The position numbers and the translations under genes are program-made. Below are positions 2 to 21,838 of a DNA stretch of 64,000 bases, one piece after another. The notes under the pieces are model-generated. The model was not told where the DNA came from. It saw only the letters and a list, made by a program, of their open reading frames with translations, and ran no database searches. Position 1 is the first letter of the stretch; every line of letters starts with the position of its first letter. Source of the DNA: Thermoproteota archaeon. Lineage in GTDB: Archaea; Korarchaeota; Korarchaeia; Korarchaeales; Korarchaeaceae. Location of the stretch: positions 124,001 through 188,000 of the forward strand of contig JALSOH010000009.1 of assembly GCA_026986575.1 (NCBI GenBank), given 5' to 3'.

Positions 2-121
2 ATACTTACACTGGAACACTACGGTGGGAGGTATTCAGGCGTCTACAAGTACTTAGTGCCTGCCTCCATTCTATCCGTGATGATCTCCCTCGCTCTGGGG
101 GTGGTCCTGTGGGGAAGGTGA
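2..121 (+). CDS. C-terminal end of an integral membrane protein (5' end outside window)
   Basis: An open frame runs from the window edge to a TGA at 119-121 and gives 39 residues. The first half is polar and basic. The last part is a typical hydrophobic membrane helix (VPASILSVMISLALGVVLWG) followed by GR and the stop. It overlaps the larA start by 13 bases, which argues for one transcript with larA. A lactate or organic-acid permease would fit beside larA, but the visible fragment has no family signature, so that is only inference. Confidence 0.6.
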   Translation: MLTLEHYGGRYSGVYKYLVPASILSVMISLALGVVLWGR

Positions 122-1350
122 GGATCCTCTACGGGGACAGGCCCATACACCTCGATATCCCGGATGAGAATCTGCTGGGGGTCTACGGTATAAAGGTCCC
201 TCCTCAAGTTGATGTGGACGAAATGCTGGAGAAGGCACTGGATTCTCCGGTTAACAGCGATCGGTTGGAGGAGATCAGGGCTTCCGAGGTGCTCATAGTG
301 GTGAACGACTCCGCCAGGCTCACCCCCACTCCTAAGATGCTGGATCACGTCCTTCCTAGGTTGGAGGGGGATGTAAGGATCATAGTCGCCACAGGGACCC
401 ACAGGCCACCTACCGAGGGGGAGTACAGGGGGTTGATACTGGGACACCACTACGACAGGCTGAGGAGGGTGACGACATATCATGACTCGAAGAGAAGCGA
501 GTTCACCGATCTGGGAAGGACTGCGAGGGGAACCCCCATCCTGATAAACTCGGAGGTCTTCAGAAACGATCTCGTAATCACTTTGGGTTCGATAGAGCCC
601 CACTACTTCGCTGGCTATACTGGAGGTAGGAAGAGCATCGCACCAGGCCTGTGTGCCTACGAATGCGTCGAGGCAAACCACAAGATGGCGCTCCTTCCCG
701 AGGCGGCTCTGGGAAGGCTCAGGGGAAACCCGCTGCACGAGGATCTGGAGGAGATGGTCAGGAGGGTGGCGGGAAGGGTTAAGGTCTTCTCCCTGAATGT
801 GGCCATCACCGGTGAGGGGAGGACGTGGGCCGCTAGGTCAGGCGACATATTCGACTCCTTCTATTCCCTCGTCGAGGAGGTTGAGAGCAGGTACTCGGTG
901 GAGCTGCCCGAGCAGGCGGACATAGTTGTGGCCGTGGCCCCAGGAGAGATGGGAATAGACCTCTATCAGTCCCACAAGGCGCTGGAGGCTGCCAAGCCCT
1001 TGGTGAGGGAGGGCGGCGTGGTCATACTCGTCGCGCCCTGCTGGGACGGCATCGGACCCAGAAACTTCTACGACCTCCTGGCCGGAAGGAGCAGGGAGGA
1101 GATCAAGGAATATGTCTGGAAGAATTACAGGCTCGGCTATCACAAGTCCGCGAAGATAGTGGAGCTACTGGATAGGGCGGAGGTGTACGCGGTTACCTAC
1201 TTGAGCCCGGAGGTCCTCGAGAGGATAGGATTCAAGCCTTTCTCCAGTCCGCAGGAGGCGTTGAACGAGGCCCTGGCCAAGGTGGGCGGGAAGGTGGCCG
1301 TCCTGCCCGAGGCGAGTTTGGTCGTGCCCCGGCTGAGGACTAAACGTTAA
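109..1350 (+). CDS. larA: Nickel-dependent lactate racemase family protein (LarA, DUF2088)
   Basis: 413 residues, the usual LarA length. LarA interconverts L- and D-lactate, or other 2-hydroxyacids in family members, using the nickel-pincer nucleotide cofactor. All four landmark residues are visible at the right spacing: H98 in GTHRP, H165 in SIEPHYFAGY, K175 in TGGRKSIAPG (the lysine that binds the pincer covalently in the Lactobacillus enzyme) and H191 in EANHKM. The start is GTG at 109, inside the end of the upstream membrane gene, so the two are translationally coupled. Cofactor genes larE, larB and larC and the regulator nikR lie 14-22 kb downstream in this window. The LarA superfamily contains enzymes acting on several hydroxyacids, so lactate itself is the family default, not proven. 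Confidence 0.92.
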   Translation: MGKVRILYGDRPIHLDIPDENLLGVYGIKVPPQVDVDEMLEKALDSPVNSDRLEEIRASEVLIVVNDSARLTPTPKMLDHVLPRLEGDVRIIVATGTHRPPTEGEYRGLILGHHYDRLRRVTTYHDSKRSEFTDLGRTARGTPILINSEVFRNDLVITLGSIEPHYFAGYTGGRKSIAPGLCAYECVEANHKMALLPEAALGRLRGNPLHEDLEEMVRRVAGRVKVFSLNVAITGEGRTWAARSGDIFDSFYSLVEEVESRYSVELPEQADIVVAVAPGEMGIDLYQSHKALEAAKPLVREGGVVILVAPCWDGIGPRNFYDLLAGRSREEIKEYVWKNYRLGYHKSAKIVELLDRAEVYAVTYLSPEVLERIGFKPFSSPQEALNEALAKVGGKVAVLPEASLVVPRLRTKR

Positions 1351-1382
1351 ATTTTTGGTTCATATGGGAGAGAAGACGAGGG

Positions 1383-3815
1383 ATGAAGAGAGCCCTGCTC
1401 CTAGCGTTAATAGCCATCACCCTGCTCCACGCCAGAGCGCAGATACCGGGCATCGAGGTGGCATTGGAACCTAGTACCATCGGTCCATCCGGCCTAGTCA
1501 ACGTCACGGTGGCCTTGACCGGTGGATTGCCCCAAGGCACGTACTACACCGTGAAGGTGGAGGTAATAGATGATGGAACGCTGATCCGGAAGGAGAGATC
1601 CTTTGTCTCCACAGGTACGTCTGAGGTGCATCACTTCTCACTCACGGCGCCCTCTAAACCCGGCGTTTATCCAGTGAGGGTGATCCTCTCCTACCCCAAC
1701 GCTAATGTGACCGAGAACGTGACCCTGACCGTGATCCCCACCTTGAGGGATGTCACGCAGCTGGCAACCTCCCTCGCCGATTTGGACGACAAATTGGACA
1801 AGCTGAAGGCGGTCAGGCTGAACGAGACCGAGCTCTCAGCCCTTCTCACTAAGAGAGCTGAGATGGCGGAGCAGTTCGGTGAGCTCGTTAGGCTCCTTGT
1901 GGAGGGGAGGGAACCTCTCAGGGCCGCGGAGCTCTACGGGAACATTTCCTCGACGATGGAGGAGATGAACGAACGAATAAGGAAGCTGTGGAGCATAGAG
2001 CTTGTTGTCTGGTCTGTATCGAGCAGCATGGACTCCTCCCTTAAGATGCCCACCGGCATAAGCGTCGAGTTCTGGTATAGGTTGGTGACCGCCTCCCTCT
2101 GGGTCATACTCCTCCTGCTCGCTCTCTTCCCTCTCTACACCACCGGCTACATAACACTCACCTATTACTTGGTTTCGGAGATGGAGGAGGCGGAGAGCAG
2201 CGAGGTGATAAACGAGGCTAACCAGAGGGCCCTCAGAATACTGGAAAGGGCTTTTGATCAGATAAAGGAGGTCTCGGATCCCAAATCGATGATAATGACG
2301 TCTCTAGCCAGCGCTCTAGCTGCCGTGGGACTGATGGCGGACAACGTGTACGCGATCATAGGCTCGATGCTCCTCTCCCCCCTGATGGGCGCCATCGTGG
2401 CCGGGGCTGTAGGGTTAGCTCTCATAGACGTGAGGAGGGAGGAGGTCACTGGTTTGGACCTCTTCTACACCGGACTGAAGGTGGGGTTGGAGGGCCTCCT
2501 CTTGGTAATCGTTCTCTCTTGGATGACTTCGGCCCTCGCTGGTTCCTACGTCCCCCTCCAGATCACGAGGGAGCTGGCCGCTAGGGGAAGCCCTAATCTG
2601 GTTGATCTGGCCATAGCCTTGGCTGCGGGATTCGCCGGCTCAGTTGCCATGATGCACGAAAGGGCTGAGGCTGCGCTGGTAGGTTCGGCCATAGCCATAG
2701 CTCTAGTACCACCGGCCGCCGCCGTGGGAGTGTCGCTGGCGATGCTCAACCCCTCGCTCTTCGTTGGCTCTGCCACCTTGGTAGCTGTGAACGTGATCGC
2801 CTTGATAGCTGCTGGCTACATCTCGGCGAAGTTCTACGCCATATACCCCGTGATAGATCGCGTTTTCCATGAGTTCATGGAGTCCTTCAGTGAGGTGTCT
2901 GGAAGAGTTGCTAGGACGAGCGCTGAGGTCCTTTTGAGGGCCATGGGTTCCTTCATCGTGGCGGTCGTGTGGTTCCTCTCCCTCTGGGTGAAGGTGTCGG
3001 TGGGCCTGCTCGGGACCAAGTCCCCCGGAGAGGCCTTAAAGGCCATAGGCAGGAAAGTAGCTTTCGTTCTCCTGCCTATAGTCCTGAGCTGGCTGTTTGG
3101 CGTCGTGATTTCTACCAATGCCTCCGCCCTCTTCTCAATCGCTCACGACTCCCTCCTTGGAATTATCGCTTTTATATCCTCCATCCTCCCCCTCAGTCTG
3201 TTAACACCCAATGTGGCTTTCTTCCTCGCTCTCATTGCCTCGGCAGCCTTCCTCAGGCTGATGACCCTCGAGGCGGTGAGGGCCAGGGAGACCGGAAGCT
3301 GGAAGAGCAGGGCCAGGGTCTTTGGCTATGCTTTCCTGTTCTGGCTCACGTCCGGCTACATCTTGGGAATCAACAGGTTCACCCACGTCAGTGCAGGATA
3401 TACACTTCTCGTCATAGCGTTCGTCACCGTTTATTCGAACAAGTTCCTCTGGGAGAGGAGGAAGAGGATCGCCCTCTACGCCTTCATAATCTTCACATTC
3501 CTCACCCTCATGATCCACAGCGCCGCGGCGTTCGAGTCGATGAGGGCTGCTGAGACCCTCTCGACGGGCAATGTGATGAAGGTTGTGAAGGAGATAATCG
3601 CCTCCTATGCTGGCGTGTTGCCGGAGAATGTTAACGTTTCCCTGACCTCTAGAGGGGCGGAGTGGGTGCTTAGAGCCAAGATATATGTGAGCGAGACGAG
3701 GTTCAAACAGGGACCGGTGATGACCCCCGCGGTGGTGAAGGCAGCTGAGGAAACGGTGAGACACGCCTTGGGAACGGATGTGAGGCTGGTGGTGGAGTAC
3801 GCCCTGACACCCTAA
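1383..3815 (+). CDS. DUF389 membrane protein with exported N-terminal domain
   Basis: 810 residues. A signal peptide (about residues 1-20) precedes an extracytoplasmic beta-sandwich-like region (about 21-115) and a helical, possibly coiled-coil stretch (about 120-210), then a membrane segment near 235-260. The DUF389 hydrophobic core follows at about 295-490, with phrases typical of the family such as DNVYAIIGSMLLSPLMGAIV and SAIAIALVPPAAAVGVSLAM. Further helices fill the rest, and a soluble alpha/beta tail of about 95 residues closes it. DUF389 proteins are of unknown function, presumed transporters. The start ATG at 1383 follows an AT-rich promoter-like stretch at 1346-1354. The exported N-terminal domain and long C-terminal half make this larger than simple DUF389 proteins. 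Confidence 0.8.
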   Translation: MKRALLLALIAITLLHARAQIPGIEVALEPSTIGPSGLVNVTVALTGGLPQGTYYTVKVEVIDDGTLIRKERSFVSTGTSEVHHFSLTAPSKPGVYPVRVILSYPNANVTENVTLTVIPTLRDVTQLATSLADLDDKLDKLKAVRLNETELSALLTKRAEMAEQFGELVRLLVEGREPLRAAELYGNISSTMEEMNERIRKLWSIELVVWSVSSSMDSSLKMPTGISVEFWYRLVTASLWVILLLLALFPLYTTGYITLTYYLVSEMEEAESSEVINEANQRALRILERAFDQIKEVSDPKSMIMTSLASALAAVGLMADNVYAIIGSMLLSPLMGAIVAGAVGLALIDVRREEVTGLDLFYTGLKVGLEGLLLVIVLSWMTSALAGSYVPLQITRELAARGSPNLVDLAIALAAGFAGSVAMMHERAEAALVGSAIAIALVPPAAAVGVSLAMLNPSLFVGSATLVAVNVIALIAAGYISAKFYAIYPVIDRVFHEFMESFSEVSGRVARTSAEVLLRAMGSFIVAVVWFLSLWVKVSVGLLGTKSPGEALKAIGRKVAFVLLPIVLSWLFGVVISTNASALFSIAHDSLLGIIAFISSILPLSLLTPNVAFFLALIASAAFLRLMTLEAVRARETGSWKSRARVFGYAFLFWLTSGYILGINRFTHVSAGYTLLVIAFVTVYSNKFLWERRKRIALYAFIIFTFLTLMIHSAAAFESMRAAETLSTGNVMKVVKEIIASYAGVLPENVNVSLTSRGAEWVLRAKIYVSETRFKQGPVMTPAVVKAAEETVRHALGTDVRLVVEYALTP

Positions 3816-3824: not shown

Positions 3825-4826
3825 ATGCTGTGGATAGATGTGGTGAACGAACCTCACGTCAGGCTCTGGAGGAGGTTCCTCCGTAGGTATCCTCAGGAGG
3901 CGCTGGTGACGGTAAGGAGGAAGGGACCTCTGGTGGAACTGACCCGCAGGCTGCTGGGCCGGGACTTTCTGGTGGTAGGAAGGTGGGGTCGCACCAAGGA
4001 GGAAAAGCTCAGGGCTTTCGCCGAGAGGGTCAGGGAACTGGCCGAGTTGGTCGATGAACTGGATGTAAGTGTGGCCACCTCCAAAGGATCGGCGGAGCAG
4101 GCTAGAGTGGCCTTCGGGCTCGGAATTCCGTTCGTGGCCCTCAACGATAACGACCTGTCGCCTCACGTGATCACCAAGCTGACCTTCCCCCTCTCCACCG
4201 TCGCGGTGGTGCCGGAGTGCTTCCGAGGTCCGATCTACGGGCCCACTCTGAGGTTCAAGGGGATCTTCGAGGTATCACACGTCCTCGATTACCTTGAGGA
4301 GCCGACGAGGGAGGAACTCAGGCATCTGGGGCTAAGAGAGAGGGGATACGTTATAGTCAGACCCCCGCCCGTAGGATCCCATTACTTAGAAGTTGCGGAG
4401 CACTTCGAGGATGCGGTGAGCAGGCTACTCCTCTCTACGGGCTTGGATGAGGTCAGGATGCCGAGGGAAGGCGGGATCATCCTGCCCGACGGATCTAGGT
4501 ACGAGGGCGTGGTCGACGGATTGGATCTGATCTCCACCTCCGCCGGAGTCCTCTCCGGTGGGGGGACTATGATAAGGGAGGCGGCGCTCCTCGGCATTCC
4601 CGCGATATCCCTATTCCCTAGGGAGGAGCCGTGCGTCACCGAGGTTCTGATGAGGGAGGGCCTGATAGTTAAGGCCAGGGAGGACACCGTGATCAGGGCC
4701 TACGAGAGGTTGCTGGAGGACATGAGCTCAGGCGAGCTCGAGAGGAGGGCTAAGAGGTTCCTCAAATCGGTCGGCGACCCTCTAGACACAGTTGCTAGGG
4801 CGCTAGAGGAGGCAGAGAGGTCTTGA
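3825..4826 (+). CDS. DUF354 family protein (glycosyltransferase-B-like)
   Basis: 333 residues with the DUF354 N-terminal signature LWIDVVNEPHV and the C-terminal region STSAGVLSGGGTMIREAAL, where family members and related UDP-GlcNAc 2-epimerase/GT-B proteins bind a nucleotide sugar. The N-terminal Rossmann half is about 1-150 and the C-terminal half about 170-333. The reaction is not established for the family; archaeal members are usually annotated as glycosyltransferase-like. It starts 9 bases after the DUF389 gene, and its stop overlaps the next start (TTGA), so it sits in the middle of an operon with the DUF389 gene and the 126-residue gene. Confidence 0.75.
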   Translation: MLWIDVVNEPHVRLWRRFLRRYPQEALVTVRRKGPLVELTRRLLGRDFLVVGRWGRTKEEKLRAFAERVRELAELVDELDVSVATSKGSAEQARVAFGLGIPFVALNDNDLSPHVITKLTFPLSTVAVVPECFRGPIYGPTLRFKGIFEVSHVLDYLEEPTREELRHLGLRERGYVIVRPPPVGSHYLEVAEHFEDAVSRLLLSTGLDEVRMPREGGIILPDGSRYEGVVDGLDLISTSAGVLSGGGTMIREAALLGIPAISLFPREEPCVTEVLMREGLIVKAREDTVIRAYERLLEDMSSGELERRAKRFLKSVGDPLDTVARALEEAERS

Positions 4827-5212: not shown

Positions 5213-6688
5213 TCAGAAGGGGCCCGCTCTGTAGCCCAGTCCTTCTTTCTCCAACTCCCCCCACTCGAACCTCTTTCCCTTAGCTCTGGCGATGAAGGTG
5301 TCCAGTAGGGCCTTCACCATCCAGGCCTCGTGCATCTGCTTGTACCCGACGACGAATAAGGGTAGGATCGCCAGGGTTATGTCCTCCTCCCCAGCGATCT
5401 GCAGTGAGAGGAGGAATATGAGGAACTGCATGAAGGAGAAAAGGATGAACTGCATTAGCAGGGGTATGAACCGACCGTGAATCAGGCCTAGAGCTAGGGA
5501 GAAGAGGACCGCCACATCCACCAGCGGGATTACGATGAGCTGCATGATCAACGCAGGAAACACCAGCCTCTGCAGGTATCCGTACCTCAGATTTAATAGA
5601 GCGTCCCTGTGCTTCAGGAGGACCTCGAAAGCCCCCCTGTACCACCTCATCCTCTGCCTGTACAGATCCCTGAGCTTCTTAGGCACTTCCGTAAATGCAA
5701 CGGCCAGGGAGCTGGCTTGCACTATCCTACCCGTCTTCAGCGCCTTTATAGTGATGTCAAAATCCTCGGTCACGACGTCCGTGTCGTACATCCCTGTGGA
5801 GCGAAGGACTTCCCTCCTGAATCCTCCGAATGATCCCGAGATTATCATGACGGCGCCGAACACGTCAAGCGCCCTCCTAGCGAAGTTGAAGCTGAGGATG
5901 TACTCTATGGCCTGAAGCTTCGTGAGGAGGTTCACCCTATTCCTGACCAGTACGTTACCCGAGACTGCGGAGACCTCGGGGTCTTGGAACCTCCTCACCA
6001 GCTCGGTTATGGACCTCCTGCCCACCAGCGTGTCTGCATCCACTACCACTATCACATCTCCCTTTGCGAACCTCATGCCGAAGTTCAGGGCCGAGGCCTT
6101 CCCTCTACCCCCGTGCTCCTTCCTGAGCACCTTGACCTTCTTGCTGACGTACCTCGACGCGATCTCGAATGTCCTGTCTGTTGAGGCATCATCCACCACT
6201 ATCACCTCCTTGGGCTCGTAATCGGTTTCGAGGATGGATTCTATCGTCGCTGCAATGGTCCTCTCCTCGTTTCTGGCCGGAACTATGACGGAGACCAGCG
6301 GCCGGTAGAGGAGAGGCCTTCCGACCTCTTGGAGCTCCCTGTACTTGTGGTAGATGGCGAGGGGAGACATGAGCATGTAGTTCCAGGTTATGAGGGTCAG
6401 TCCGAAGGCTAGCAGGGAGTTCAATAGCCCGGGAAACTTGGCGTATCCCTCGTAGAGGACGACGGCAGCCAATGCAATGGGCACGATCACCATGAGGATG
6501 GAGAGCTCCGTAAGCCCTCTCTTGAAGCTGAGCCCCCTCTTTCCCCTCCTGAAGGCCTCAGCCAAGTAATAGAGAGTGAGGGCCGAAGCTATTAGGAGGG
6601 AAACTATGGTAAGTCTCCCAGGTATCACCAGCGGGATCAGGGCGATACTGATGTAGAGCGTCACAACGGTGAGGTAAATCCTCCACAC
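5213..6688 (-). CDS. Membrane-bound family 2 glycosyltransferase (processive type)
   Basis: 491 residues. Four N-terminal membrane helices (about 1-115) precede a GT2 catalytic domain (about 130-350) and three to four C-terminal helices. Catalytic landmarks are all visible: VVDD at 164-167, DAD at 217-219, TED at 307-309 and QRMRW at 345-349. This combination (D, DxD, TED, QxxRW) marks processive beta-glycosyltransferases such as cellulose, chitin or poly-N-acetylglucosamine synthases. The product would be a surface polysaccharide; the sugar cannot be read from sequence. It lies 12 bases downstream of the TackOD1-like zinc protein on the same strand, suggesting a shared transcript. Confidence 0.9.
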   Translation of the reverse strand: MWRIYLTVVTLYISIALIPLVIPGRLTIVSLLIASALTLYYLAEAFRRGKRGLSFKRGLTELSILMVIVPIALAAVVLYEGYAKFPGLLNSLLAFGLTLITWNYMLMSPLAIYHKYRELQEVGRPLLYRPLVSVIVPARNEERTIAATIESILETDYEPKEVIVVDDASTDRTFEIASRYVSKKVKVLRKEHGGRGKASALNFGMRFAKGDVIVVVDADTLVGRRSITELVRRFQDPEVSAVSGNVLVRNRVNLLTKLQAIEYILSFNFARRALDVFGAVMIISGSFGGFRREVLRSTGMYDTDVVTEDFDITIKALKTGRIVQASSLAVAFTEVPKKLRDLYRQRMRWYRGAFEVLLKHRDALLNLRYGYLQRLVFPALIMQLIVIPLVDVAVLFSLALGLIHGRFIPLLMQFILFSFMQFLIFLLSLQIAGEEDITLAILPLFVVGYKQMHEAWMVKALLDTFIARAKGKRFEWGELEKEGLGYRAGPF

Positions 6689-6700
6689 GCGAACACCCCT

Positions 6701-7726
6701 TCAGGGGGCGCCGTGGTCCTTCTCTAGGAGCTTCTCCCCAGCTACGAGCTCTCTCAGCATCTGGATCAATCTCTCGATCAGATCCTCGCGCCTAGAGGAT
6801 TCAATCAGCGTAATTCCGTACCTACGAGCAACGTCCCTCAACCTCTCATCCAACGAGGACGGAATCGCGAGTATCCAGTACTTGGCGTTGGCGTCGAATG
6901 CCTTCGCGAAGAACCTCAGCAAATCCTCTTCCCTCAGCTGCTTCCCGGGAGGGACGATATCAATAACCGCCACAGGTATCGGCTCGTCTGAGGACCTGAT
7001 CACGAAAGTAAAACTTTGCTCTATGCCCGAGACGCCCTTAACCTTGGCTCCCGGGCCCTCTACAGTTATGCCGAGTTCAAGTAACCTGTCGGCCATCTCA
7101 CTGAGGAAGGACGCCTCCTCCAGAGATCTTACCCTCTCTGGGACGACCCTGTAGCGGTATACCCTCGCGATCCTCAGGTCCTTAATGGAGTTCTCCTTAC
7201 CACAGTCGGCACACACGAACTTGAGCTCAGGCAGGGAGAAGAACTCCCCGCAGTCAGAGCACAGATAGATGTCGGCAGTCCTGAGGTAGTCCACCCCAAT
7301 AGCCCTGAGCTTCTTCCCGCATTTGGGACAGACCATCTCTCCACTGGGGGTCTTGAAGTCCGTCTCCGGTCCAGAATAGCCGCAGGCGAGATGCTCGATG
7401 ACCGTGGTCCTGCTAAAGTTGATCGATCCGCAGTAGGGACAGACGGGTCTGATAGTGAGCCTATGGGAGCCGCATCTCCCGCACACAGCGATATTATCGT
7501 GGAGCTCTGCCCTCAGGATACCTTCCCTTGTCAACTCCCTCAGGACATCCTCCACCCCCTCACAATCCCGAACCCCCATTTCCCCGAGCAAGGGACAGTA
7601 GGTGAAGCCCTCATCGGGATCGAAAACTGGAACTAGCTCTTGGAGGTCCCCCGAGAGTATAAGGTTCATCAGCCTTCTCTTGAGGGCGATCCTCCCCCGG
7701 TCCAATCCATCGTCCTTTACGGCCAT
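6701..7726 (-). CDS. TackOD1-like multi-zinc-ribbon protein
   Basis: 341 residues. The N-terminus is helical. It is followed by at least three zinc-ribbon-like Cys pairs: C82/C85 with C96/C99, H112/C115 with C133/C136, and C156/C159 with C172/C175. The layout resembles the TackOD1 output domain described for TACK archaea and some bacteria, where it is usually fused to receiver domains. No receiver domain is seen here. The C-terminal half (about 200-335) has an alpha/beta pattern with PVAVIDIVP and KYWILAIPSSLDE, possibly a nuclease-like or Rossmann-like fold. TackOD1 proteins are often linked to exopolysaccharide genes, which fits the glycosyltransferase next to it. Role inferred: sensing or regulation of surface polysaccharide. 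Confidence 0.65.
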   Translation of the reverse strand: MAVKDDGLDRGRIALKRRLMNLILSGDLQELVPVFDPDEGFTYCPLLGEMGVRDCEGVEDVLRELTREGILRAELHDNIAVCGRCGSHRLTIRPVCPYCGSINFSRTTVIEHLACGYSGPETDFKTPSGEMVCPKCGKKLRAIGVDYLRTADIYLCSDCGEFFSLPELKFVCADCGKENSIKDLRIARVYRYRVVPERVRSLEEASFLSEMADRLLELGITVEGPGAKVKGVSGIEQSFTFVIRSSDEPIPVAVIDIVPPGKQLREEDLLRFFAKAFDANAKYWILAIPSSLDERLRDVARRYGITLIESSRREDLIERLIQMLRELVAGEKLLEKDHGAP

Positions 7727-7837
7727 CTTCGTTTACCGTACCCACGAGTAATATTAAGGATGTCGCGGTTTACCCTGAAAAAGAAGTCGGTATCCGAGCT
7801 TTTCAGGGACAGCCCCCTCGGGGAGGCGCCCTCGCCC

Positions 7838-8674
7838 TTACCGTCTCGGCGTGAGAACCAGCTCACAGTGCTCATCCCCCCTAGCGACGCACCTCTCCTC
7901 ATGAGATTCGTACTCGACCCCCATGATCTCCGACACCGCACCCTCTATTATACCCCTCACCATGCTGCATCCCACATCCTCACTGCTCTCCACGAGATTG
8001 GGATTCTCCTCTAATATTTCCTTGAGAGAAGTGCATTCAATGCATTCGTACTTTCTAACAACTATATCTTCGCCCCTCCTCTCCACCTCGGCAATCCCGT
8101 ACCCTAGGGATTGAAAGAGGGGTAAGGCGACCTTCTTCACCACCTCAAAGGGATCGTCGATCTCCAATTCCTCGGACAGGGATACATGCTTCCTCGAGAG
8201 CCCCCTCCCCATCCTCACGCCCACCTGATAGAGAATGCCAGAGGCAGCCCTCGGGCCTATAGCCTCTATCAGTCCCCTAATCAGCTCCTTCATGGCGGAC
8301 TTCCTCAGCATGACGATTCTCTCGCCGAAGACAGTGGGAGGGAATGAAGTGGTGTCCGCTATCAATCCCCTCGTCACGGGTTCGAAGATCCTCACTTCTC
8401 CGATGCTCTTAACGCCAGAGATCCTCTCCACGAGTTCCTGGGAGTCCACCTCCTTATCCGTGATGTCCACAACGAGGATCATCCTCGGCTCAGCACCCAC
8501 CGAATAGCCGTAGATGTAGTTTATGTTCAGCTCCATATCTTCTATTATCCCGGAGATCTCCCTTAGTAGTCCGGGTCTATCCTCCTTGAACGTGAGCGAG
8601 AGACCCAGGAAATCCCTACCGGGAGAGATGAGGACATTCCTAAACTCCAGAGGCTTGGGATCGTCCATCATCAA
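7838..8674 (-). CDS. ACT-like domain fused to V4R domain
   Basis: 278 residues. An ACT-like regulatory domain (about 20-98, with SLTFKEDRPGLLREISGII) is followed by a V4R (4-vinyl-reductase) domain (about 115-278). V4R domains bind small hydrophobic ligands or metal in regulators and in chlorophyll and bacteriochlorophyll enzymes. Conserved-looking cysteines are C211, C214, C236, C262 and C270, with the family-like ending ARGDEHCELVL. It is a diverged tandem paralogue of the next upstream gene (8712-9602), 37 bases apart on the same strand. Likely a cytoplasmic ligand sensor; no DNA-binding domain is visible, so a partner may be needed. Start chosen among three adjacent ATGs (8674-8668). Confidence 0.75.
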   Translation of the reverse strand: MMMDDPKPLEFRNVLISPGRDFLGLSLTFKEDRPGLLREISGIIEDMELNINYIYGYSVGAEPRMILVVDITDKEVDSQELVERISGVKSIGEVRIFEPVTRGLIADTTSFPPTVFGERIVMLRKSAMKELIRGLIEAIGPRAASGILYQVGVRMGRGLSRKHVSLSEELEIDDPFEVVKKVALPLFQSLGYGIAEVERRGEDIVVRKYECIECTSLKEILEENPNLVESSEDVGCSMVRGIIEGAVSEIMGVEYESHEERCVARGDEHCELVLTPRR

Positions 8675-13004: not shown

Positions 13005-13228
13005 AAGGTTTCCCTCCTTCCCCTCTCTATCACCTCATCGATCTCCTCGATGGTAAGCTTCCTCCCCGATCTAAGGGTCTTTCTGACTCTCTTAACCTTC
13101 TTCATTACTATATGACCTTCCTCACTTACGTAAACTTCCAAGTAATCGCCTTCCCTTATGCCCAGCTCGTTCCTCACCTCGGCTGGAATGGTGACCTGGT
13201 AGTTCCTAGTGACCTTCACCCTCGGCAT
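13001..13228 (-). CDS. AbrB/SpoVT-type antitoxin of the VapC pair
   Basis: About 75 residues. The swapped-hairpin AbrB fold is clear: MPRVKVTRNYQVTIPAEVRN, then LGIREGDYLEVYV, then a basic, helical tail (residues 40-75) that would bind the toxin. The start is set at the ATG at 13228 because a TATA-like box (13245-13257, minus strand) sits about 24 bases upstream. It would bind DNA as a dimer and repress its own promoter while blocking VapC. Confidence 0.8.
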   Translation of the reverse strand: MPRVKVTRNYQVTIPAEVRNELGIREGDYLEVYVSEEGHIVMKKVKRVRKTLRSGRKLTIEEIDEVIERGRRETF

Positions 13229-13244
13229 CATAGTATCATATTCT

Positions 13245-13257
13245 ACTAATATAAAAG
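13245..13257 (-). promoter_or_regulatory. TATA box of the AbrB-VapC operon
   Basis: On the minus strand CCTTTTATATTAG is centred about 24 bases before the ATG at 13228, fitting a leaderless transcript. Confidence 0.5.
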
Positions 13258-13371
13258 GACATCTAGTAATTAGCGATCGACCGCGCGACGTTTTCCCCGT
13301 TCTGAATCGGGTATGTTCCGACTTGGCTTGGTCGCGCATCCTCTTTAAGGACGTGGTGCCTGACTTCGATG

Positions 13372-13737
13372 ATGGAACTGGAACTAGTGCTGGAGAGACT
13401 AAAGTCCCATGAGAAGGTACTGGCAGTCATACTCTTCGGTTCCACCGTCAGGGGAGAGACCACACCCCTCTCGGATGTTGATATTGCCGTGGTCGTGGAG
13501 GATCCAACCCCGGAGGACGAGGCGGAGCTGGGAAGCCTATACTCTAGGAGGATAGACTTGGTTCTGTTTCACAGGCTCCCCCCTTACATCCAGTTCCAAG
13601 TATTGAAGGAGGGGAAGGTCCTCTACCTGAGAGACAAGGAGAAGTTCAAAGAGATAAAATTCAGGACCATCAGGAACTACCTCGAGCATTCCCGCATGTA
13701 CAGAAGGGTGAGGGAGATGCTCCTTGAGGTCGAATAG
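13372..13737 (+). CDS. MNT-type nucleotidyltransferase antitoxin
   Basis: 121 residues from the second of two adjacent ATGs (13369 and 13372); a TATA-like CTCTTTAAGG at 13341-13350 fits 13372. The catalytic signature LFGSTVRGETTPLSDVDIAV is complete (GS, then D-x-D). MNT enzymes transfer AMP to the tyrosine of the partner HepT and so silence it. It is followed, with a small overlap, by the HepT gene: order is antitoxin first, opposite to the module at 11.7 kb. Confidence 0.85.
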   Translation: MELELVLERLKSHEKVLAVILFGSTVRGETTPLSDVDIAVVVEDPTPEDEAELGSLYSRRIDLVLFHRLPPYIQFQVLKEGKVLYLRDKEKFKEIKFRTIRNYLEHSRMYRRVREMLLEVE

Positions 13738-14113
13738 CTTGGCTAGATTCATGAGTCACTACAGAAAGGCGAGAGAGTTAAAGGAGAGCGATCTCTCAAA
13801 TTACTTGGTCTACACGGCCCTAGCCATGGAGTGCTTCCAGGCAGTGAACTCCCTCATAGAGATTGGCGAGAGATACGTGGTGGATCTGGGCAGGTACCCC
13901 GCTACCTACTCCGACATATTCCAGATAATGTACGAAGAGGGAGCGATAACTATGGAGGAGCTGAGGGCTCTCAAGAGGCTGATCTTCCTCAGGAACTTGA
14001 TAGCTCACGAGTATTACAGAATAACTGGGGAAGAGCTGAAAGAGATGGCCGACCTGCTGGATATGGCTGAAAGGGTCGTGAGGAGATTAATGAAACATTC
14101 GCATCCTAGTTGA
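13724..14113 (+). CDS. HepT-like HEPN (DUF86) toxin
   Basis: 129 residues from TTG at 13724 (overlapping the MNT stop) or 120 from the ATG at 13751. All-helical with the R-x4-H motif RNLIAHEYY near 93-101, including the target tyrosine. Intact and paired with the upstream MNT gene. Confidence 0.82.
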   Translation: MRSNSLARFMSHYRKARELKESDLSNYLVYTALAMECFQAVNSLIEIGERYVVDLGRYPATYSDIFQIMYEEGAITMEELRALKRLIFLRNLIAHEYYRITGEELKEMADLLDMAERVVRRLMKHSHPS

Positions 14114-14207: not shown

Positions 14208-14984
14208 CTAGACCAGCACGAGCTTAGATCCCCTATAACCTGCGAGGTCTAGGGTGACTGCGTGGAAACCCATAGATGAGGCCATCTCCAAGATCTCATC
14301 CCGAATCTCCAGAATCCTGTACATGTCGGGGGGAGGGACCTCTATCCTCACCTCACTCCCCTGGACGCGGGCCCTCACCATCGAGACGCCCGTTCGGAGG
14401 ATTAAGTCCTCCAAGTTTTCGATCTTCTTCAATAGATCGAGACTAACCTTTCTTCCCGGCGGCATTCTGGTTAGCAAGCAGGTTTCGGCCAAGTAGGGGA
14501 GATCAAGGTCCCTCAGCAGTGAGAATACCTCTCCTTCCGTAATTCCTGCCTCTACAAGCGGACTCCTGATCCCCAACTCTTTCAGAGCCCTTAAGCCTGG
14601 CCTGTCCTCCCTCAAATCGCTGACATTGGTCCCATCTAGCACCGCGTCGCACCCTTCCCGCTCAGCCACATCCAAGATCAGGGACATCATCCTCAACTTG
14701 CAGAAGTAGCATCTGAGGGGGCCATTCCTCGATATTTCATCCTCTTTCATTACCTCCTTATCCCTGATGATGATGTGATCCACTCCAAGGAGTCTGGCCA
14801 CCCCTTCGCTGGCAGCGATGACCCTCCTAGGTATGTAGGGGAAGTCGACTGTCACGGCCTTTACCTTATCCACGCCAGCTTGTTCGAGCGCCCAGAGTAG
14901 GAACGTGCTGTCCCTACCTCCAGAGAATGCTATAGCTGGGCACCTGTAGCCCTTCAAGGCACGAATCAACTTCTCGAGGCTCAC
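14208..14984 (-). CDS. larE: LarE, ATP-dependent sulfur transferase for the nickel-pincer cofactor
   Basis: 258 residues. LarE activates the carboxylates of pyridinium-3,5-biscarboxylic acid mononucleotide with ATP and converts them to thiocarboxylates. The PP-loop SGGRDS (21-26) binds ATP. DGTNVSDLREDRPG (117-130) is family-typical. C169 in AETCLLTR matches the sulfur-donating cysteine of the Lactobacillus enzyme, and C92 and C95 (RCYFC) could join it as a three-cysteine [4Fe-4S] site, as in the Thermotoga-type LarE. The GTG start at 14984 has its own TATA-like box, so it is probably transcribed separately from the fix operon upstream. Confidence 0.9.
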   Translation of the reverse strand: MSLEKLIRALKGYRCPAIAFSGGRDSTFLLWALEQAGVDKVKAVTVDFPYIPRRVIAASEGVARLLGVDHIIIRDKEVMKEDEISRNGPLRCYFCKLRMMSLILDVAEREGCDAVLDGTNVSDLREDRPGLRALKELGIRSPLVEAGITEGEVFSLLRDLDLPYLAETCLLTRMPPGRKVSLDLLKKIENLEDLILRTGVSMVRARVQGSEVRIEVPPPDMYRILEIRDEILEMASSMGFHAVTLDLAGYRGSKLVLV

Positions 14985-15109: not shown

Positions 15110-16159
15110 TCATTTCCTCCTTCCTTTTATCCCCCTTATCTCCTCCAGCAGCTGTATTAGCGCAGGAACGACCTCCCTGTAATCTCCTACTATACCGTAA
15201 TCCGCATGCTCGAATATGGGAGCATCGGGGTCTATGTTTATGGCCACGACTCTCTTCGCCTCCCTTATCCCGAACACATGCTGAGCTGCTCCGCTTATAG
15301 CGACTGCTATATATAGGTTCGGTTTAACTGCTTTCCCCGTCTGTCCCACCTGCTTGTCGTGGTCTATCCATCCAGCGTCAACGGCCTTCCTAGAGCCAGC
15401 TATAACGCCGCCGAGGAGATCAGCCAGCCTCTTCAATAACTCAAATCCCTCCTTGGAACCGACCCCCTTACCCCCAGCAACTATGATGTCGGCCTTCTCG
15501 ATGGGGATCTCCTCCTTCTTCAGGATGGGCTCCCTGCTCAGCAGTCTGATTCCCCTTGGTTGGGGTACCTCAACCTTCTCCTCGTATATCTCACCATGCC
15601 TGCTCTCGTCCCTCTCTGGGGTGGGGAATATATTGGGCCTCACCGATCCCATCACTGGCCTCCTGCTCCTAGTGACTATATGGGCGAGCATGAAACCGCC
15701 GAAGGGCGGCCTTATCAGCACCACGTCACCATTCTCATCGACATCCATGGAAGTCAGGTCCGCCGTTATTCCCGTCCTGAAAGAGTTCGCCACATACGGC
15801 GCTAGCTCCCTGCCCCTCAGCGTTGCCGGGATAAGGAACACCTCTGGCTTGTACTTCGAGGCCAGCTCGAATAGCACTTTCCCCCACACGGTCGGGTAGT
15901 ATGTAGAAAGCCTCTCGTCATCCACGACGTAAACCCTGTCCGCCCCGTAGTAGATGGGTTCCTCAGCCAGTCCTCTCACCCCACTACCTATCAGGGCCAC
16001 GCCCACATAGGTGTTCAGCTTGTCCGCTAGCTCTCTGGCAGCACCAATCAGCTGCAGGCTAGCTTCCTCTATCTCCTTCCTCTCGTTGTCTGAGAAGGCT
16101 GCTACCCAAACGCCCTCGTACTCCTCTAGGTTTATCTCGGGCCACTCCTTGCAGACCAT
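15110..16159 (-). CDS. fixB: Electron-transfer flavoprotein alpha subunit (FixB/EtfA)
   Basis: 349 residues. The N-terminal domain (about 15-185) pairs with EtfB. The C-terminal FAD domain shows the classical run VIAGSRKAVDAGWIDHDKQ, QTGKAVKPNLYIAVAISGA and VAINIDPDAPIFEHADYG. In FixABCX (EtfABCX) complexes the subunit carries the FAD that passes electrons to FixC. It is the last gene of the minus-strand operon fixC-fixX-fixA-fixB, 4 bases after fixA with a GGGGTGATGAG Shine-Dalgarno before the ATG. Confidence 0.93.
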   Translation of the reverse strand: MVCKEWPEINLEEYEGVWVAAFSDNERKEIEEASLQLIGAARELADKLNTYVGVALIGSGVRGLAEEPIYYGADRVYVVDDERLSTYYPTVWGKVLFELASKYKPEVFLIPATLRGRELAPYVANSFRTGITADLTSMDVDENGDVVLIRPPFGGFMLAHIVTRSRRPVMGSVRPNIFPTPERDESRHGEIYEEKVEVPQPRGIRLLSREPILKKEEIPIEKADIIVAGGKGVGSKEGFELLKRLADLLGGVIAGSRKAVDAGWIDHDKQVGQTGKAVKPNLYIAVAISGAAQHVFGIREAKRVVAINIDPDAPIFEHADYGIVGDYREVVPALIQLLEEIRGIKGRRK

Positions 16160-16979: not shown

Positions 16980-17264
16980 TCAACTGAACCTGAAGTGGAT
17001 CCCCCTCCCGCTGACCGGGTAGTCCCAGTGGACCGCGTCGTGAGGGCAGATCAGCCTGCATGTTCCACATTCGAGGCAACCCTCGTAGCTGAAAAGCACC
17101 TCATTCCCGACTAGTGTGTAGCACTGGGCCGGGCAGAGAAGGAGACAAGGCTTCTCATCGCATTCTCTGCACTTGGTCGCGTCCACCCTTATGTGAGGCT
17201 CGTAGTCCACATCCCACACGTCGTTGTTCAGGATGTCGTCGACCCTCATGGGCTTCCTCATCAT
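16980..17264 (-). CDS. fixX: FixX ferredoxin-like protein
   Basis: 94 residues with two cysteine clusters for iron-sulfur binding: CRECDEKPCLLLCP (about 33-46) and CLECGTCRLICP (about 63-74), then the FixX-typical ending near residue 80 (VHWDYPVSGRGI). It would connect FixC to the quinone pool. The ATG overlaps the fixC stop by 4 bases. Confidence 0.92.
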   Translation of the reverse strand: MMRKPMRVDDILNNDVWDVDYEPHIRVDATKCRECDEKPCLLLCPAQCYTLVGNEVLFSYEGCLECGTCRLICPHDAVHWDYPVSGRGIHFRFS

Positions 17265-18559
17265 ATGCTCCTCACCATCCCCAGCAGATCCCTTATCAGA
17301 TCAAGCCAGCCTATCCTTCCTTTTCTAGCCCTCTTGAATGCCTCCATTATCTTGGGAACTTCGTAGGGTGAGTGGAAGAGCTGGTCCATAACCGAGTTCA
17401 ATACCTCGGGGTAGGTGGAGTAGAGCCTGCCGTTTTCCCTCATTTTAGAGGCGTTTCTGAACTTCCTCAGCTGCTTCATGATGAAGCTTTCCTCCAGCAA
17501 CCTCTCATACACGGACAGGTTCTCTGAGGTCATGCCTCCCATCTCATGGGCCTTCTCCACGGCTTTCGCTGCTAGATAACCCGAGTAGGCCGCGTAGTCC
17601 ACGCCCCTGAAGTTGTACCCCAAATTTAAGAGCAGACCAGCCGCATCTCCTGCAACGAGGAGGCCATCGGCGTAGAGCCTGTGGGGGAGGGAGGGCCAAG
17701 TGTATTCGGGCACGAGGTGAGCCGAGTATTCCATTATCCTGCCGTTCCGGAAGTACCTCTCGAGGAGGGGGTGTAACCTCAAAGCCTCCACGTAGCGGGA
17801 GATGTGCTCCCTCACCCCCTTAACCGCCTCGCCAAGCATGACCACGAGGCCCAAGCTGACGGAGTCCCTGTTCGTGTATAGGAAGGCCCCTCCTGGCAGC
17901 CCCCCAGTGACCTCACCCATCATGAGCCATGCCAACCCTTCACCCTCCTCAAGACCGAACAGATCCTCTATTTCCTTCTTCGAGAGCTTTATCACCTCCT
18001 TGACTCCCAAGCCAGCATGCCTCAGCTCGAGCTTGGGAACCAGCCCTGCCCTTTCCAGCAGGAGCCTGTTTATCCCCTCCGCATCTATCACCACTTCGCT
18101 GGAGACCTTCTCATCACCCACCCTTATGCCCGTCACTCTCCCATTCTCCACCACCAGCTCGTCCACAGTTATCTCCGTGAGCACCGTTCCACCAGCCTCC
18201 TCCACCCTCTTGGCCATCCAGCAGGACAGCTCGGTCAGGTAGGTGGTGAAGGATGTCTTCTTTCTCGTGTGGAATTCGAAGGAGGTCATCGCCTCACCGC
18301 TGACCATCGATATCCTCTCCTTGGTCACCCATCTGTGGATCGGAGCCGAATCATCGAATCCGTCGAACACATCTCTGAGCGGATCAGCGTAGACCCTACC
18401 ACCGAAAACGTTCTTGGTGCCCGGCATCCTGCCTCTTTCCACTAGTAGGACCTTAAATCCCTTCTTAGCTAGGGTATATGCAGCAGCTGAGCCCGCTGGC
18501 CCTGCTCCTACGACTATAACGTCGAATTTGTAACCAACCTCTTTCAAGCTTGAAAACAC
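17261..18559 (-). CDS. fixC: FixC / ETF-quinone oxidoreductase-like flavoprotein
   Basis: 432 residues. FAD-binding Rossmann signature VVGAGPAGSAAAYTL near 16-30, ERG closing the second strand near 42, and a second FAD contact VAGDAAGLLLNLGYNFRG near 315-330. In FixABCX, FixC takes one electron branch and reduces quinone together with FixX. First gene of the operon; the GTG at 18559 is used as start (TTG at 18547 is an alternative). A TATA-like AAGTTTATTA lies at 18591-18600 (minus), and a near-perfect inverted repeat sits just upstream of it. Confidence 0.92.
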   Translation of the reverse strand: MFSSLKEVGYKFDVIVVGAGPAGSAAAYTLAKKGFKVLLVERGRMPGTKNVFGGRVYADPLRDVFDGFDDSAPIHRWVTKERISMVSGEAMTSFEFHTRKKTSFTTYLTELSCWMAKRVEEAGGTVLTEITVDELVVENGRVTGIRVGDEKVSSEVVIDAEGINRLLLERAGLVPKLELRHAGLGVKEVIKLSKKEIEDLFGLEEGEGLAWLMMGEVTGGLPGGAFLYTNRDSVSLGLVVMLGEAVKGVREHISRYVEALRLHPLLERYFRNGRIMEYSAHLVPEYTWPSLPHRLYADGLLVAGDAAGLLLNLGYNFRGVDYAAYSGYLAAKAVEKAHEMGGMTSENLSVYERLLEESFIMKQLRKFRNASKMRENGRLYSTYPEVLNSVMDQLFHSPYEVPKIMEAFKRARKGRIGWLDLIRDLLGMVRSI

Positions 18560-18805
18560 CCTCCAGGTGCCTTTTCAATCTATCGAAATCTAATAAACTT
18601 TTGTGGGGCTGAATGGGACCCCTGAGCCCCATTCAATTTGAGATAGGGCATTTTCAAACCGAATCAATGAGCCAAGAATATTGAACATCTCGAGGCAGGA
18701 AGGGGCAGGAGGGGTACGATACGCTAACTTAGGGATCCCCCCTCACATCTCAGGCGAGGAGCTAACATACCTGAAGTTTAAATCGGATGGGGGGACCTCT
18801 TCTGG
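18560..18805. promoter_or_regulatory. Divergent promoter region between fixC and larB
   Basis: 246 bases without a gene. Minus-strand TATA-like AAGTTTATTA at 18591-18600 serves fixC. Plus-strand GTTTAAAT at 18776-18783 lies 26 bases before the larB ATG. The inverted repeat at 18610-18635 lies just behind the fixC TATA box. Confidence 0.6.
18610..18635. repeat. Inverted repeat upstream of fixC (candidate operator)
   Basis: Arms TGAATGGG (18610-18617) and CCCATTCA (18628-18635) are perfect complements with a 10-base spacer. Its place directly upstream of the fixC TATA box suggests a regulator site; a hairpin in RNA is an alternative. It does not match the Escherichia coli NikR operator. Confidence 0.5.
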
Positions 18806-19564
18806 ATGCAACTTCGCACAATCCTCGAGAGACTCGTTCGTGGTGAGATAGGCGTAGAGGAGGCGGAGAAGCTCATCCGGTCTTGGGAGGTAAGGCAACT
18901 CGGGGAGACCCTGAAACTTGACCTGGGGAGAGAGATGAGGAAGGGGTTACCTGAGGTGATCTTGGCCCAATGGAAGGGAGGGGAGGATCTCAGGAAGGCG
19001 ATAGTCGGAGCGCTGGAGGCGAGGGGTAGGGCCCTAATATCTAGGATATCCGAGGAGCATATTCCGATAATAGAGGAGTTCGAGCGGGAATACCATGTTA
19101 GGAAGAGCCCCAACTCGAGGGTCTACGTAATCAGGAGACGGGATCTCCCGGCACCTCCGCTTAAGGGGAAGGTGGGTATAATAGCGGCGGGCACGTCAGA
19201 TGTTCCCATTGCCGAGGAGGTCAGGTTGCTGGTGGAGGAGGCCGGATGCTCCACGGTGAGGGCGTACGACGCGGGGGTGGCGAACCTCAAGAGGACCTTG
19301 GAAGCGGTTACCGATGTGATGGAGGGGGGAGCTGACGTCATTGTCGCCATAGCCGGAATGGAGGGCTCACTCCCCTCGGTCGTGGCCTCCTTAGTGGATA
19401 TCTTGGTGATCGGGCTGCCCACCTCGGTCGGGTACGGGATGGGGGGCGGAGGAGAAGCGGCTCTGCTCTCTATGCTCCAGTCCTGCGCGCCCGGGCTGGT
19501 GGTGGTTAACATAGACAACAGCGTCGCGGCGGCCTACGCAGCCGTTTCCGTGTGCGGGAGGTGA
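18806..19564 (+). CDS. larB: LarB, pyridinium-3,5-biscarboxylic acid mononucleotide synthase
   Basis: 252 residues. LarB carboxylates and hydrolyses nicotinic acid adenine dinucleotide, the first step to the nickel-pincer cofactor. The C-terminal two thirds (about 110-252) have the AIR-carboxylase-like core: VGIIAAGTSDVPIAEEV, GMEGSLPSVVASLV, GLPTSVGYGMGGGGEAAL. C227 in LQSCAPG matches, by distance from the end, the substrate-binding cysteine of the Lactobacillus enzyme. Leaderless start with TATA 26 bases upstream; larC follows after 4 bases. Confidence 0.93.
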   Translation: MQLRTILERLVRGEIGVEEAEKLIRSWEVRQLGETLKLDLGREMRKGLPEVILAQWKGGEDLRKAIVGALEARGRALISRISEEHIPIIEEFEREYHVRKSPNSRVYVIRRRDLPAPPLKGKVGIIAAGTSDVPIAEEVRLLVEEAGCSTVRAYDAGVANLKRTLEAVTDVMEGGADVIVAIAGMEGSLPSVVASLVDILVIGLPTSVGYGMGGGGEAALLSMLQSCAPGLVVVNIDNSVAAAYAAVSVCGR

Positions 19565-19568: not shown

Positions 19569-20798
19569 ATGCTCGTCATAGACCCTAGGATGGCGGGGAT
19601 ATCGGGGGACATGCTTCTCTCCGCCTTAGTGGACCTCACGGGAATGGAGGAAGCGGTGCAAGAGGTGGCAGATGTCGTTTCCTCAACGCTGGATTACGTG
19701 GACAGGATCGGGGTAGAGTTCAGGGACGTCAGGAGGGGCGACCTCAGGGGGAGAAGGATGATCGTCACCTTGGAGGAAAGGGTCGAGAGACTCTGGGCCT
19801 CCGACGCTCTGAGATATGCCGCTGAGATGTGCAGGAACTTGGGCTTGGGCGAGAGGGCATCCACCCTCGTGAGGACCGTCATTAGCGAGTTAGCGAGAGC
19901 CGAGGTCTCAGCCCACGGTTACGAGCCTGAGAAGGCACACTTCCACGAGCTCGGCTCGGCTGACACCTTCTTGGACGTGTTGGGGGTGGCCAGCGTCCTT
20001 CAGAGATCGGGGCTAATAGATGAGCTGGTGTATACCACCCCCCCAGCCTTGGGCGGCGGTTACGTGGAGATCTCCCACGGCTACTTGCCGGTGCCGACTC
20101 CCGCAGTCTTGGAGATACTGAGGAGGCACAACTATAGGATATCATCGGTCCCCATTGAAGCGGAACTCACCACCCCTACGGGAGCTGCCCTCCTCGTAAA
20201 CCTAGCTTCTAGGATCGTAGATACCCTGCCACCCATGAGGATCGAGGGAGTTGGGGTTGGAGCTGGAGAGAGGGAGCTGGACAGGGTGCCGAACCTCCTT
20301 AGGGTGATCAGAGGATCGGGGAGCGGGAGCAGGGAAGTGAAGATGGAGGTAGTTACTCTCTTGGAGACGAACGTGGATGACGTCCCTGGAGAGGTGCTAG
20401 GTCACGTGGTCGATGAGCTAATGAAGCAGGGAGCCCTGGACGTATCTGTGCTCCCGGCTACGGGAAAGAAGGGGAGACCTGCGTACCTAATCAGGGTGCT
20501 CTCCAATCCTCGGGCGGCTGAGGAGCTGGCCATCCTGCTGATGAGGGAGACCGGCACCCTAGGCGTGAGATTGATGGATGTCCCGAGGATGGTGGCGGAG
20601 AGGGATGTGAGGACCATCAGGCTGGAGTTGCTTGGGAGGAGCTACGAGGTAAGGGTGAAGGTATCGAGCATAGGAGGGAAGGTGGTCAATGTGAAGCCAG
20701 AACACGACGATCTTGCGAAGATCTCTAGGGAAACAGGGATCCCTTTAAGGAGACTTGATGACCTCGTGAGGACGCGTCTCGCTGAACCCCTCGACTAG
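19569..20798 (+). CDS. larC: LarC, nickel insertion enzyme for the pincer cofactor
   Basis: 409 residues. LarC uses CTP to insert nickel into pyridinium-3,5-bisthiocarboxylic acid mononucleotide. Family features are DPRMAGISGDMLL at the N-terminus, HFHELGSADTFLD near 122-134, PVPTPAVLEIL, ELTTPTGAALL, and ETNVDDVPGEVLGHV in the C-terminal half. It is one continuous frame, unlike Lactobacillus, where larC needs a frameshift. Start ATG at 19569 follows GGAGGTGATGAT, part of which is the larB stop. Co-transcribed with larB. Confidence 0.93.
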   Translation: MLVIDPRMAGISGDMLLSALVDLTGMEEAVQEVADVVSSTLDYVDRIGVEFRDVRRGDLRGRRMIVTLEERVERLWASDALRYAAEMCRNLGLGERASTLVRTVISELARAEVSAHGYEPEKAHFHELGSADTFLDVLGVASVLQRSGLIDELVYTTPPALGGGYVEISHGYLPVPTPAVLEILRRHNYRISSVPIEAELTTPTGAALLVNLASRIVDTLPPMRIEGVGVGAGERELDRVPNLLRVIRGSGSGSREVKMEVVTLLETNVDDVPGEVLGHVVDELMKQGALDVSVLPATGKKGRPAYLIRVLSNPRAAEELAILLMRETGTLGVRLMDVPRMVAERDVRTIRLELLGRSYEVRVKVSSIGGKVVNVKPEHDDLAKISRETGIPLRRLDDLVRTRLAEPLD

Positions 20799-20845: not shown

Positions 20846-21354
20846 GTGAATGATGAATCTCTCGATATCAGGGAGAGGTTCCTCTCATCGGGAAGGGCGG
20901 TCTTCAAAATGGTCCAGCTATCCAACATCCTCAGGATATCCCGGGATCACGTCAAGATGTACGCTAGTAGACTGAAACCTTGGCAGGAAGATAAGAGGTA
21001 CGTTCAAGCATTGGTGTTCTACGCGTTGAGCGGGTGGCCTATCATCATGAACGGAGGAACTTATCTCTGGTTCTTCCATGGGCCAAACAAATTCTACGAT
21101 GATCTCGACTTCGCCCGGACATGAGTTTTGAAGGAGGACCCGAGGATGTGAGTGTCACTTGAGCTCTTCGGACTGAGAAATAGCATGAAGGTACTGAGGG
21201 AAGATAAAATACGCACTCACGTTCAGAGTAGATGCGTGAAGATCACTCTCGACGTCTGAGAAGGATCTCTGCCGTGTTCATGTGGATATAAGCAGGAGCG
21301 AGAGGGTCCTCCTGAAGCCGATACCCATCAAATTGGATGAGCCCGCGCGCCCTC
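20846..21354 (+). pseudogene. Relic of an AbiEii/AbiGii-type nucleotidyltransferase
   Basis: The open part (20846-21124, 92 residues, GTG start) ends in NGGTYLWFFHGPNKFYDDLDF, the catalytic signature of the AbiEii nucleotidyltransferase family, and stops three codons later. Downstream, further family-like pieces appear in changed frames with stops between them: VKITLDV at about 21237-21257 and ISRSERVLLKPIPIKLDEPA up to about 21349. The gene has therefore lost reading frame in several places. Intact members are type IV abortive-infection toxins. No intact partner is next to it. Confidence 0.65.
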
Positions 21355-21400
21355 GCCCAGGGACGCGGGATTATTAACTATCTTACCTCCGATAGAATTG

Positions 21401-21838
21401 ATGGGTTCGCACAAGCACGAGGAGGGTAGGAGAGGAGAGAGCTCAGTAAGGTTCGGGGTGTCAGTGCCAGCCGACTTGCTCAGGGAGTTCGACGAGGTGA
21501 TCTCCAAGATAGGAATGAAGCGTTCCAAGGCAATTAGGTTGGCAATGAGGAACTTCCTATCCGAGAGGAACTGGGAGTGTCAGGATAAGGAGGTCGTGGG
21601 AACGATAAACCTCCTCTACGACCACGAGGTCAGGGGGCTGGAAGAGTTCCTGACGGAGGTGCAGCATGAGTTCTTGGACGTGGTGCTATTCAACACCCAC
21701 ATACACTTGGACAGGGAAAACTGCCTCATGGTCATAGTGATCAGGGGGAATCCCTCCCGGATCAGGAGGATGATCGAGAAGATATCTTCGAGGAGGGGCA
21801 TCAAGCAAGTGAGGACTCTCATAAGCAGCATGAGCTGA
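21401..21838 (+). CDS. nikR: NikR-type nickel-responsive repressor
   Basis: 145 residues from the ATG at 21401 (a TTG lies one codon earlier). N-terminal ribbon-helix-helix DNA-binding part (VRFGVSVPADLLREFDEVI, then KRSKAIRLAMRNFL) and C-terminal ACT-like nickel domain. With numbering from the TTG, the four nickel ligands of E. coli NikR (H76, H87, H89, C95) have exact counterparts at the same spacing: H90 (VQHEF), H101 and H103 (THIHL) and C109 (RENC). It would shut off nickel uptake or nickel-related genes when nickel is plentiful. It lies 600 bases after larC, the only nickel-using system visible here. Confidence 0.9.
   Translation: MGSHKHEEGRRGESSVRFGVSVPADLLREFDEVISKIGMKRSKAIRLAMRNFLSERNWECQDKEVVGTINLLYDHEVRGLEEFLTEVQHEFLDVVLFNTHIHLDRENCLMVIVIRGNPSRIRRMIEKISSRRGIKQVRTLISSMS

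Follow-up and report, generated by a model that had tools for sequence, protein, structure and literature searches.

The locus raises the question of whether a complete set of nickel-pincer (Lar) genes, a fixCXAB operon and nikR, all found within positions 109-21838 of the window, form one metabolic unit or two modules that share a neighbourhood. The window is the whole 64,000-nucleotide stretch analysed, C9:124001-188000 of source genome G000 (11 contigs, 1.91 Mb). All the parts come from known families, and the neighbourhood by itself is no mechanism. The second answer, an ordinary cofactor pathway lying beside an ordinary bifurcating complex, is probably the correct one. The first-pass annotation had described larA, larE, larB and larC as present and apparently intact, together with fixCXAB and nikR, and the nine genes are uninterrupted, with one open frame per named gene. 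Its placement of fixCXAB between larE and larB, and of nikR after larC, agrees with the coordinates of the following features.

109..1350, plus strand: larA, 2-hydroxyacid racemase dependent on the nickel-pincer cofactor, malate-type by prediction (Pfam Lar_N 166 bits, LarA_C 46 bits; both above cut-off)
1383..3815, plus strand: DUF389 membrane protein, probable larA operon partner (DUF389 95 bits; synteny)
3825..4826, plus strand: DUF354 protein, probable larA operon partner (DUF354 124 bits; synteny)
14208..14984, minus strand: larE, [4Fe-4S] (CxxC-C) type sulfur insertase (TIGR00268 213 bits, cut-off 150)
15110..16159, minus strand: fixB (etfA), closest solved structure EtfABCX 7koe_B, 282 bits
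16164..16970, minus strand: fixA (etfB), bifurcating type (top five solved matches are bifurcating/confurcating Etf)
16980..17264, minus strand: fixX, ferredoxin-like subunit (best match 7koe_D, 71 bits)
17261..18559, minus strand: fixC, ETF-quinone oxidoreductase-like flavoprotein (7koe_C, 212 bits)
18560..18805, no strand: divergent intergenic region between fixC and larB (alignment of five genomes)
18806..19564, plus strand: larB, initial enzyme in the synthesis of the nickel-pincer cofactor (NF033503 215.6 bits, cut-off 175)
19569..20798, plus strand: larC, nickel insertase with LarC1 and LarC2 in one frame (TIGR00299 161 bits, cut-off 90; NF052512 125 bits, cut-off 50)
21398..21838, plus strand: nikR, nickel-responsive regulator (PRK04460 127.6 bits, cut-off 105)

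The strand arrangement, absent from the earlier annotation, places fixCXAB and larE on the minus strand, where larE follows fixB at a spacing of 125 bases and fixC and fixX overlap by 4 bases. The larB-larC pair is divergent from fixC across a gap of 246 bp, and nikR begins 600 bases past larC. The larA gene lies ~13 kb ahead of larE and ~14-17 kb from fix, and the interval up to larE is occupied by toxin-antitoxin-like genes, a DUF505 gene and regulator-like genes. Positions 5213-9602 encode a TackOD1 zinc-ribbon protein adjoining a GT2 glycosyltransferase, as well as a tandem pair of ACT-V4R proteins, while two HepT-like ORFs, an MNT-type nucleotidyltransferase and a VapBC-like pair lie between the DUF505 gene and larE (11705-14113). 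Further along the window are two large minus-strand ORFs of 1104 and 649 aa that gave no Pfam match (31158-36458), and a HerA-type helicase (DUF87) with an intein-splicing domain (61422-63977) directly after a NurA gene (60256-61425).

LarB, LarC and LarE are all unbroken and exceed their curated cut-offs, and the set for biosynthesis of the pincer nucleotide is thus complete. The Lar and NikR genes as a whole exceed such cut-offs with the exception of LarA, which passes Pfam but reaches the cut-off of no NCBIfam equivalog. The C-terminal cysteine of LarB, C227, is invariant in 12 of 12 aligned sequences, and LarC aligns with full-length LarC 12bi. In LarE, residues C92, C95 and C169 line up with the cysteines of 8cnz to form a CxxC-C triad. 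Since this triad binds a [4Fe-4S] cluster in Thermotoga maritima LarE (PMC9283937), the window LarE should be catalytic and not self-sacrificing. Compared with LarABCE of Lactobacillus plantarum, the window proteins share the LarA catalytic histidines and cofactor-holding lysine, together with LarB, LarC and LarE above curated cut-offs. They differ in the CxxC-C cluster motif of LarE, where the L. plantarum protein has a sacrificial single cysteine, and in a one-frame LarC, a larA placed in a separate permease operon and a nearby nikR.

LarA displays the features of its superfamily, namely both domains, two catalytic histidines, the cofactor lysine and the nickel histidine, and the active-site residues H98/H165 (catalytic), K175, H191, Q287 and K290 are kept. 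The two substrate-specificity positions, W358/T359, are occupied by H345-K346, and His/Gln-Lys at these positions has been reported for malate racemases (PMC11770544). Among solved structures the best full-length match is similarly a malate racemase, Mar2 (LarAH6, 6d6z), which shares the His-Lys pair, although the window protein, scoring 326 bits where the family requires 500, lies outside the curated equivalog. LarA scores below the lactate racemase equivalog (NF033504, 239.5 bits, cut-off 460) and below both malate racemase families (NF052593, 325.8 against 500; NF052595, 263 against 462), and the malate-type assignment is therefore a prediction. Lactate is the less likely substrate because LarA has its own permease operon as well as the His-Lys pair of malate racemases. 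A DUF401 permease, a 402-aa membrane protein, starts before the window and ends ~10 bases inside the larA frame, an overlap conserved in six relatives. The order larA-DUF389-DUF354 is conserved in G005, G007 and G014, and in the more distant G009, G011 and G012 an AEC-family permease adjoins larA instead. Because permease genes adjoin larA both here and in relatives, the context of LarA is transport-linked, its own, and separate from fix. A second LarA is encoded in the genome at C4:76438, so the window LarA is not the sole possible user of the cofactor; this second protein has a counterpart of neither H345 nor K346 and may act on another substrate.

Each of the four Fix proteins (FixA, FixB, FixC and FixX) has its match among the four chains making up T. 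maritima EtfABCX (7KOE), and all are encoded in one operon. The five best solved matches of FixA (5ol2, 6fah, 4kpu, 7koe and 7qh2) are all bifurcating or confurcating Etf proteins, and both FixA and FixB match such proteins ahead of any classical Etf. FixB carries RPPFGG, corresponding to the group-2 motif RPXFGG whose arginine is required for ferredoxin reduction in T. maritima (PMC10734219), and FixA carries GLRGSPT, a GxxGSPT-type loop near the bifurcating FAD. In addition, FixX retains two four-cysteine sets, C32/C35/C40/C44 and C63/C66/C69/C73. The four subunits, the RPXFGG motif and the two-cluster FixX are shared with EtfABCX of T. maritima and of Pyrobaculum aerophilum; the window complex differs in adjoining nickel-pincer genes. 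By homology, FixABCX is predicted to be of the group-2 bifurcating type and to take electrons from NADH. The idea that Fix accepts electrons from a lactate dehydrogenase runs against the chemistry of characterised EtfABCX complexes, including that of T. maritima, which are NADH-oxidising (PMC10734219). Because EtfABCX takes its electrons from NADH, the window complex would not need a dedicated lactate dehydrogenase as direct donor. The same genome holds a second Fix-like set (L104, G000:C4:494000-512000), a separate Etf route, with a FixC of 41%, EtfAB and a divergent FixX, and with acyl-CoA-dehydrogenase-like and thiolase-like ORFs as neighbours.

The proposal of a hydroxyacid unit can be put in a revised form. 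LarA would provide both isomers of malate or lactate, an NAD-dependent dehydrogenase would produce NADH, and FixABCX would convert this into reduced quinone and reduced ferredoxin. The earlier remark that no lactate dehydrogenase is visible is true of the window, but the genome encodes an Ldh_2 malate/L-lactate dehydrogenase on the same contig, ~3 kb past the window end and ~47 kb from larB, and a GlcD-type oxidase with a CCG/FeS protein on contig C4. Because both enzymes are present in the genome, a route from malate through NADH to Fix is chemically possible. Ldh_2 occurs in 14 of 16 genomes of the genus and the FAD-oxidase family in all 16. Both families are, however, also present in relatives that lack fix, lar or both, and neither tracks with fix or lar. 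A precedent is offered by bacterial lct clusters, which combine a lactate racemase (LctF), a permease, a lactate dehydrogenase (LctD) and EtfAB (LctBC) (PMC8914356), and which resemble the window in uniting a LarA-family gene and a bifurcating-type Etf in one region (PMC8914356). In contrast, the fix-larBC cluster itself holds no dehydrogenase and no permease, LctD and a lactate permease included, a search of the fix-lar cluster having found no lactate dehydrogenase gene, and it includes FixC and FixX, which lct clusters lack. The distance of LarA from fix in the window and the 49 kb that separate larA from larB in G014 also count against such a unit, which we consider unlikely.

Gene presence and absence in relatives were scored by sequence searches. 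The gene calls, the completeness of the Lar set and the local fix-lar adjacency reported by the first-pass annotation are all correct, and the adjacency is repeated in one clade of the genus, where fixC and larB are divergent neighbours in every assembled case (G000, G005, G008, G014 and G015); in G003 the fix operon sits at a contig end. This adjacency persists across 25% FixC and 43% LarB divergence. The association of lar with fix that the annotation proposed to check in relatives thus stands for this clade but breaks in both directions elsewhere. A fix operon with a FixC ortholog is found without LarA or LarB in G002, G022 and G023, and LarA, LarB, LarC and LarE are found without a FixC ortholog in G009, a complete one-contig genome of the same genus (1,590,757 bases), and in G012. 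The LarB of G009 and G012 shows 45% identity, noted as a possible independent origin of lar. In G010 and G011 two intact LarA proteins are encoded (in G011 at C2:387214 and C1:225445), and the searches detected neither LarB nor LarC and no LarE over cut-off; G011 consists of two contigs and is 99% complete. The clearest counter-example to an obligatory functional link is the close relative G007, which keeps larA and larE but lacks fixBAXC, larBC and nikR.

Physical linkage could account for the arrangement if fixBAXC-larBC-nikR were gained or lost as a block, deletion-prone or transferred, with no other tie between its parts. The gene order of the window is followed in G007 as far as larE (89% over 4.4 kb) and gives way there to unrelated genes, with a clean breakpoint on contig C21 (L314) just before larE, where fixBAXC-larBC-nikR is absent. 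In this genome (96% complete, 70 contigs) larA and larE remain, and a FixC ortholog, LarB, LarC and NikR over cut-off were not found, the parts of the block being absent together. This is nevertheless one case in a 70-contig assembly, and the window contains no tRNA. G014, moreover, retains the fixC-larB pair, yet its larE is found on a different contig and ~8 kb separate its nikR from larC. Recent transfer is disfavoured because the closest LarB proteins outside the clade, those of G006 and G018, come from the same family. Movement as a block is accordingly a rather improbable explanation.

The nickel control proposed for the locus was followed through NikR and the region between fixC and larB. 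NikR passes its family cut-off and keeps the four nickel ligands H90, H101, H103 and C109 when aligned with NikR 2bj1. The alignment of five genomes displays separate AT-rich promoter-like boxes for the two sides of the intergenic region, and an imperfect inverted repeat at 18610-18635, upstream of fixC and next to its box, is partly kept in four genomes. The 16-bp core of this repeat is unique in the window. The window held no second site above chance and relaxed matches to the core equal the chance level, so NikR control of lar or fix is a candidate at most and no regulon is claimed.

A tie between LarB, or the pincer nucleotide, and Etf/Fix that does not involve LarA was considered from larB neighbourhoods across Archaea, for example a pincer enzyme exchanging electrons with Etf or a supply of reduced ferredoxin for cofactor assembly. 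For the survey, each archaeal genus with coordinates available was represented by one genome and ~6 kb to either side of larB was read, giving 93 loci, several of them from the known clade, and ~88 genera. The only cases of Etf or a true FixC beside larB are this clade and family f25 (G048 and G128); in the latter, EtfAB and an acyl-CoA-dehydrogenase-like ORF diverge from larB across a gap of 44-60 bases. Among 80 larB loci from GTDB species genomes a single one, from a Nitrososphaerales genome (L206), has Fix beside larB, in the order FixAB in one frame, fixC, fixX and a short ORF, divergent from larB. In L235 and L275 the FixC matches close to larB have 25% identity and were discounted as relatives of the geranylgeranyl-reductase type. 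LarA was not found in G048, G128, G350 or the L206 genome, and the pairing in f25 and L206 therefore cannot serve LarA racemisation; genomes with LarBCE and without LarA are known (PMC11796402). From the ETF counts of the 28 genera with both gene families, a Poisson estimate gives 0.06 genera expected to have Etf no more than 500 bp from larB, 0.10 for 1.5 kb and 0.25 for 5 kb. Two genera were seen, corresponding to P ~0.002-0.005 at 0.5-1.5 kb and up to ~0.03 over 0.5-5 kb, in a post hoc statistic whose distances were set after seeing the data, with related genomes and many contigs ending near larB. For these reasons the recurrent divergent arrangement of Etf and larB is a weak lead and not proof. 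Divergent Etf/Fix and larB in three archaeal lineages argue for the tie, but the pairing is rare overall, the partner is not constant (f25 has EtfAB and an acyl-CoA-dehydrogenase-like ORF, the remaining two lineages have FixABCX) and no candidate enzyme was identified. The literature searched yielded no published link between larB and fixC or between the pincer and bifurcation, though one may exist elsewhere. We regard such a tie as quite improbable. The lactate or hydroxyacid oxidation unit under nickel control, as first stated, is rejected on the dissociation of lar and fix, the malate-type residue pair of LarA and the NADH-oxidising chemistry of Fix. The LarA-free f25 and Nitrososphaerales genomes in which Etf adjoins larB also speak against it.

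The reading that two known modules share a neighbourhood is thus preferred. LarB, the iron-sulfur type LarE and LarC would supply two LarA racemases with the nickel-pincer nucleotide. For the window LarA the most likely substrate is malate or a 2-hydroxyacid resembling it, which its own DUF401 permease would transport, and the product isomer could be used by a stereospecific dehydrogenase elsewhere in the genome. FixABCX would be a bifurcating complex in its own right, associated with the membrane, that passes electrons from NADH to both quinone and ferredoxin. The fixC and larB genes would be divergent neighbours by descent in one clade, presumably without biochemical coupling. Of this reading, the gene content, the intact residues, the clade-restricted synteny and the dissociation among relatives are observed; the substrate, the way the electrons flow and the lack of coupling are inferred. 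Against this reading stand the adjacency in five of five clade genomes where the contig allows it and the divergence of Etf and larB in two unrelated lineages.

The tidy metabolic story told by one genome, in which lar and fix are paired, weakens once relatives are checked. The larB-Etf neighbourhoods in LarA-free genomes bear on the role of LarBCE without LarA. It is a long shot that in several archaeal lineages LarB, and with it the pincer nucleotide or a precursor, cooperates with electron transfer by Etf/Fix without involving LarA; if true, this would point to a redox enzyme, as yet undiscovered, that depends on the pincer, or to a need for electrons during assembly of the cofactor. The locus adds a complete nickel-pincer pathway with an iron-sulfur type LarE to a deep archaeal lineage, and the coupling of a predicted malate-type racemase to the uncharacterised DUF401 permease family provides a testable substrate for DUF401.
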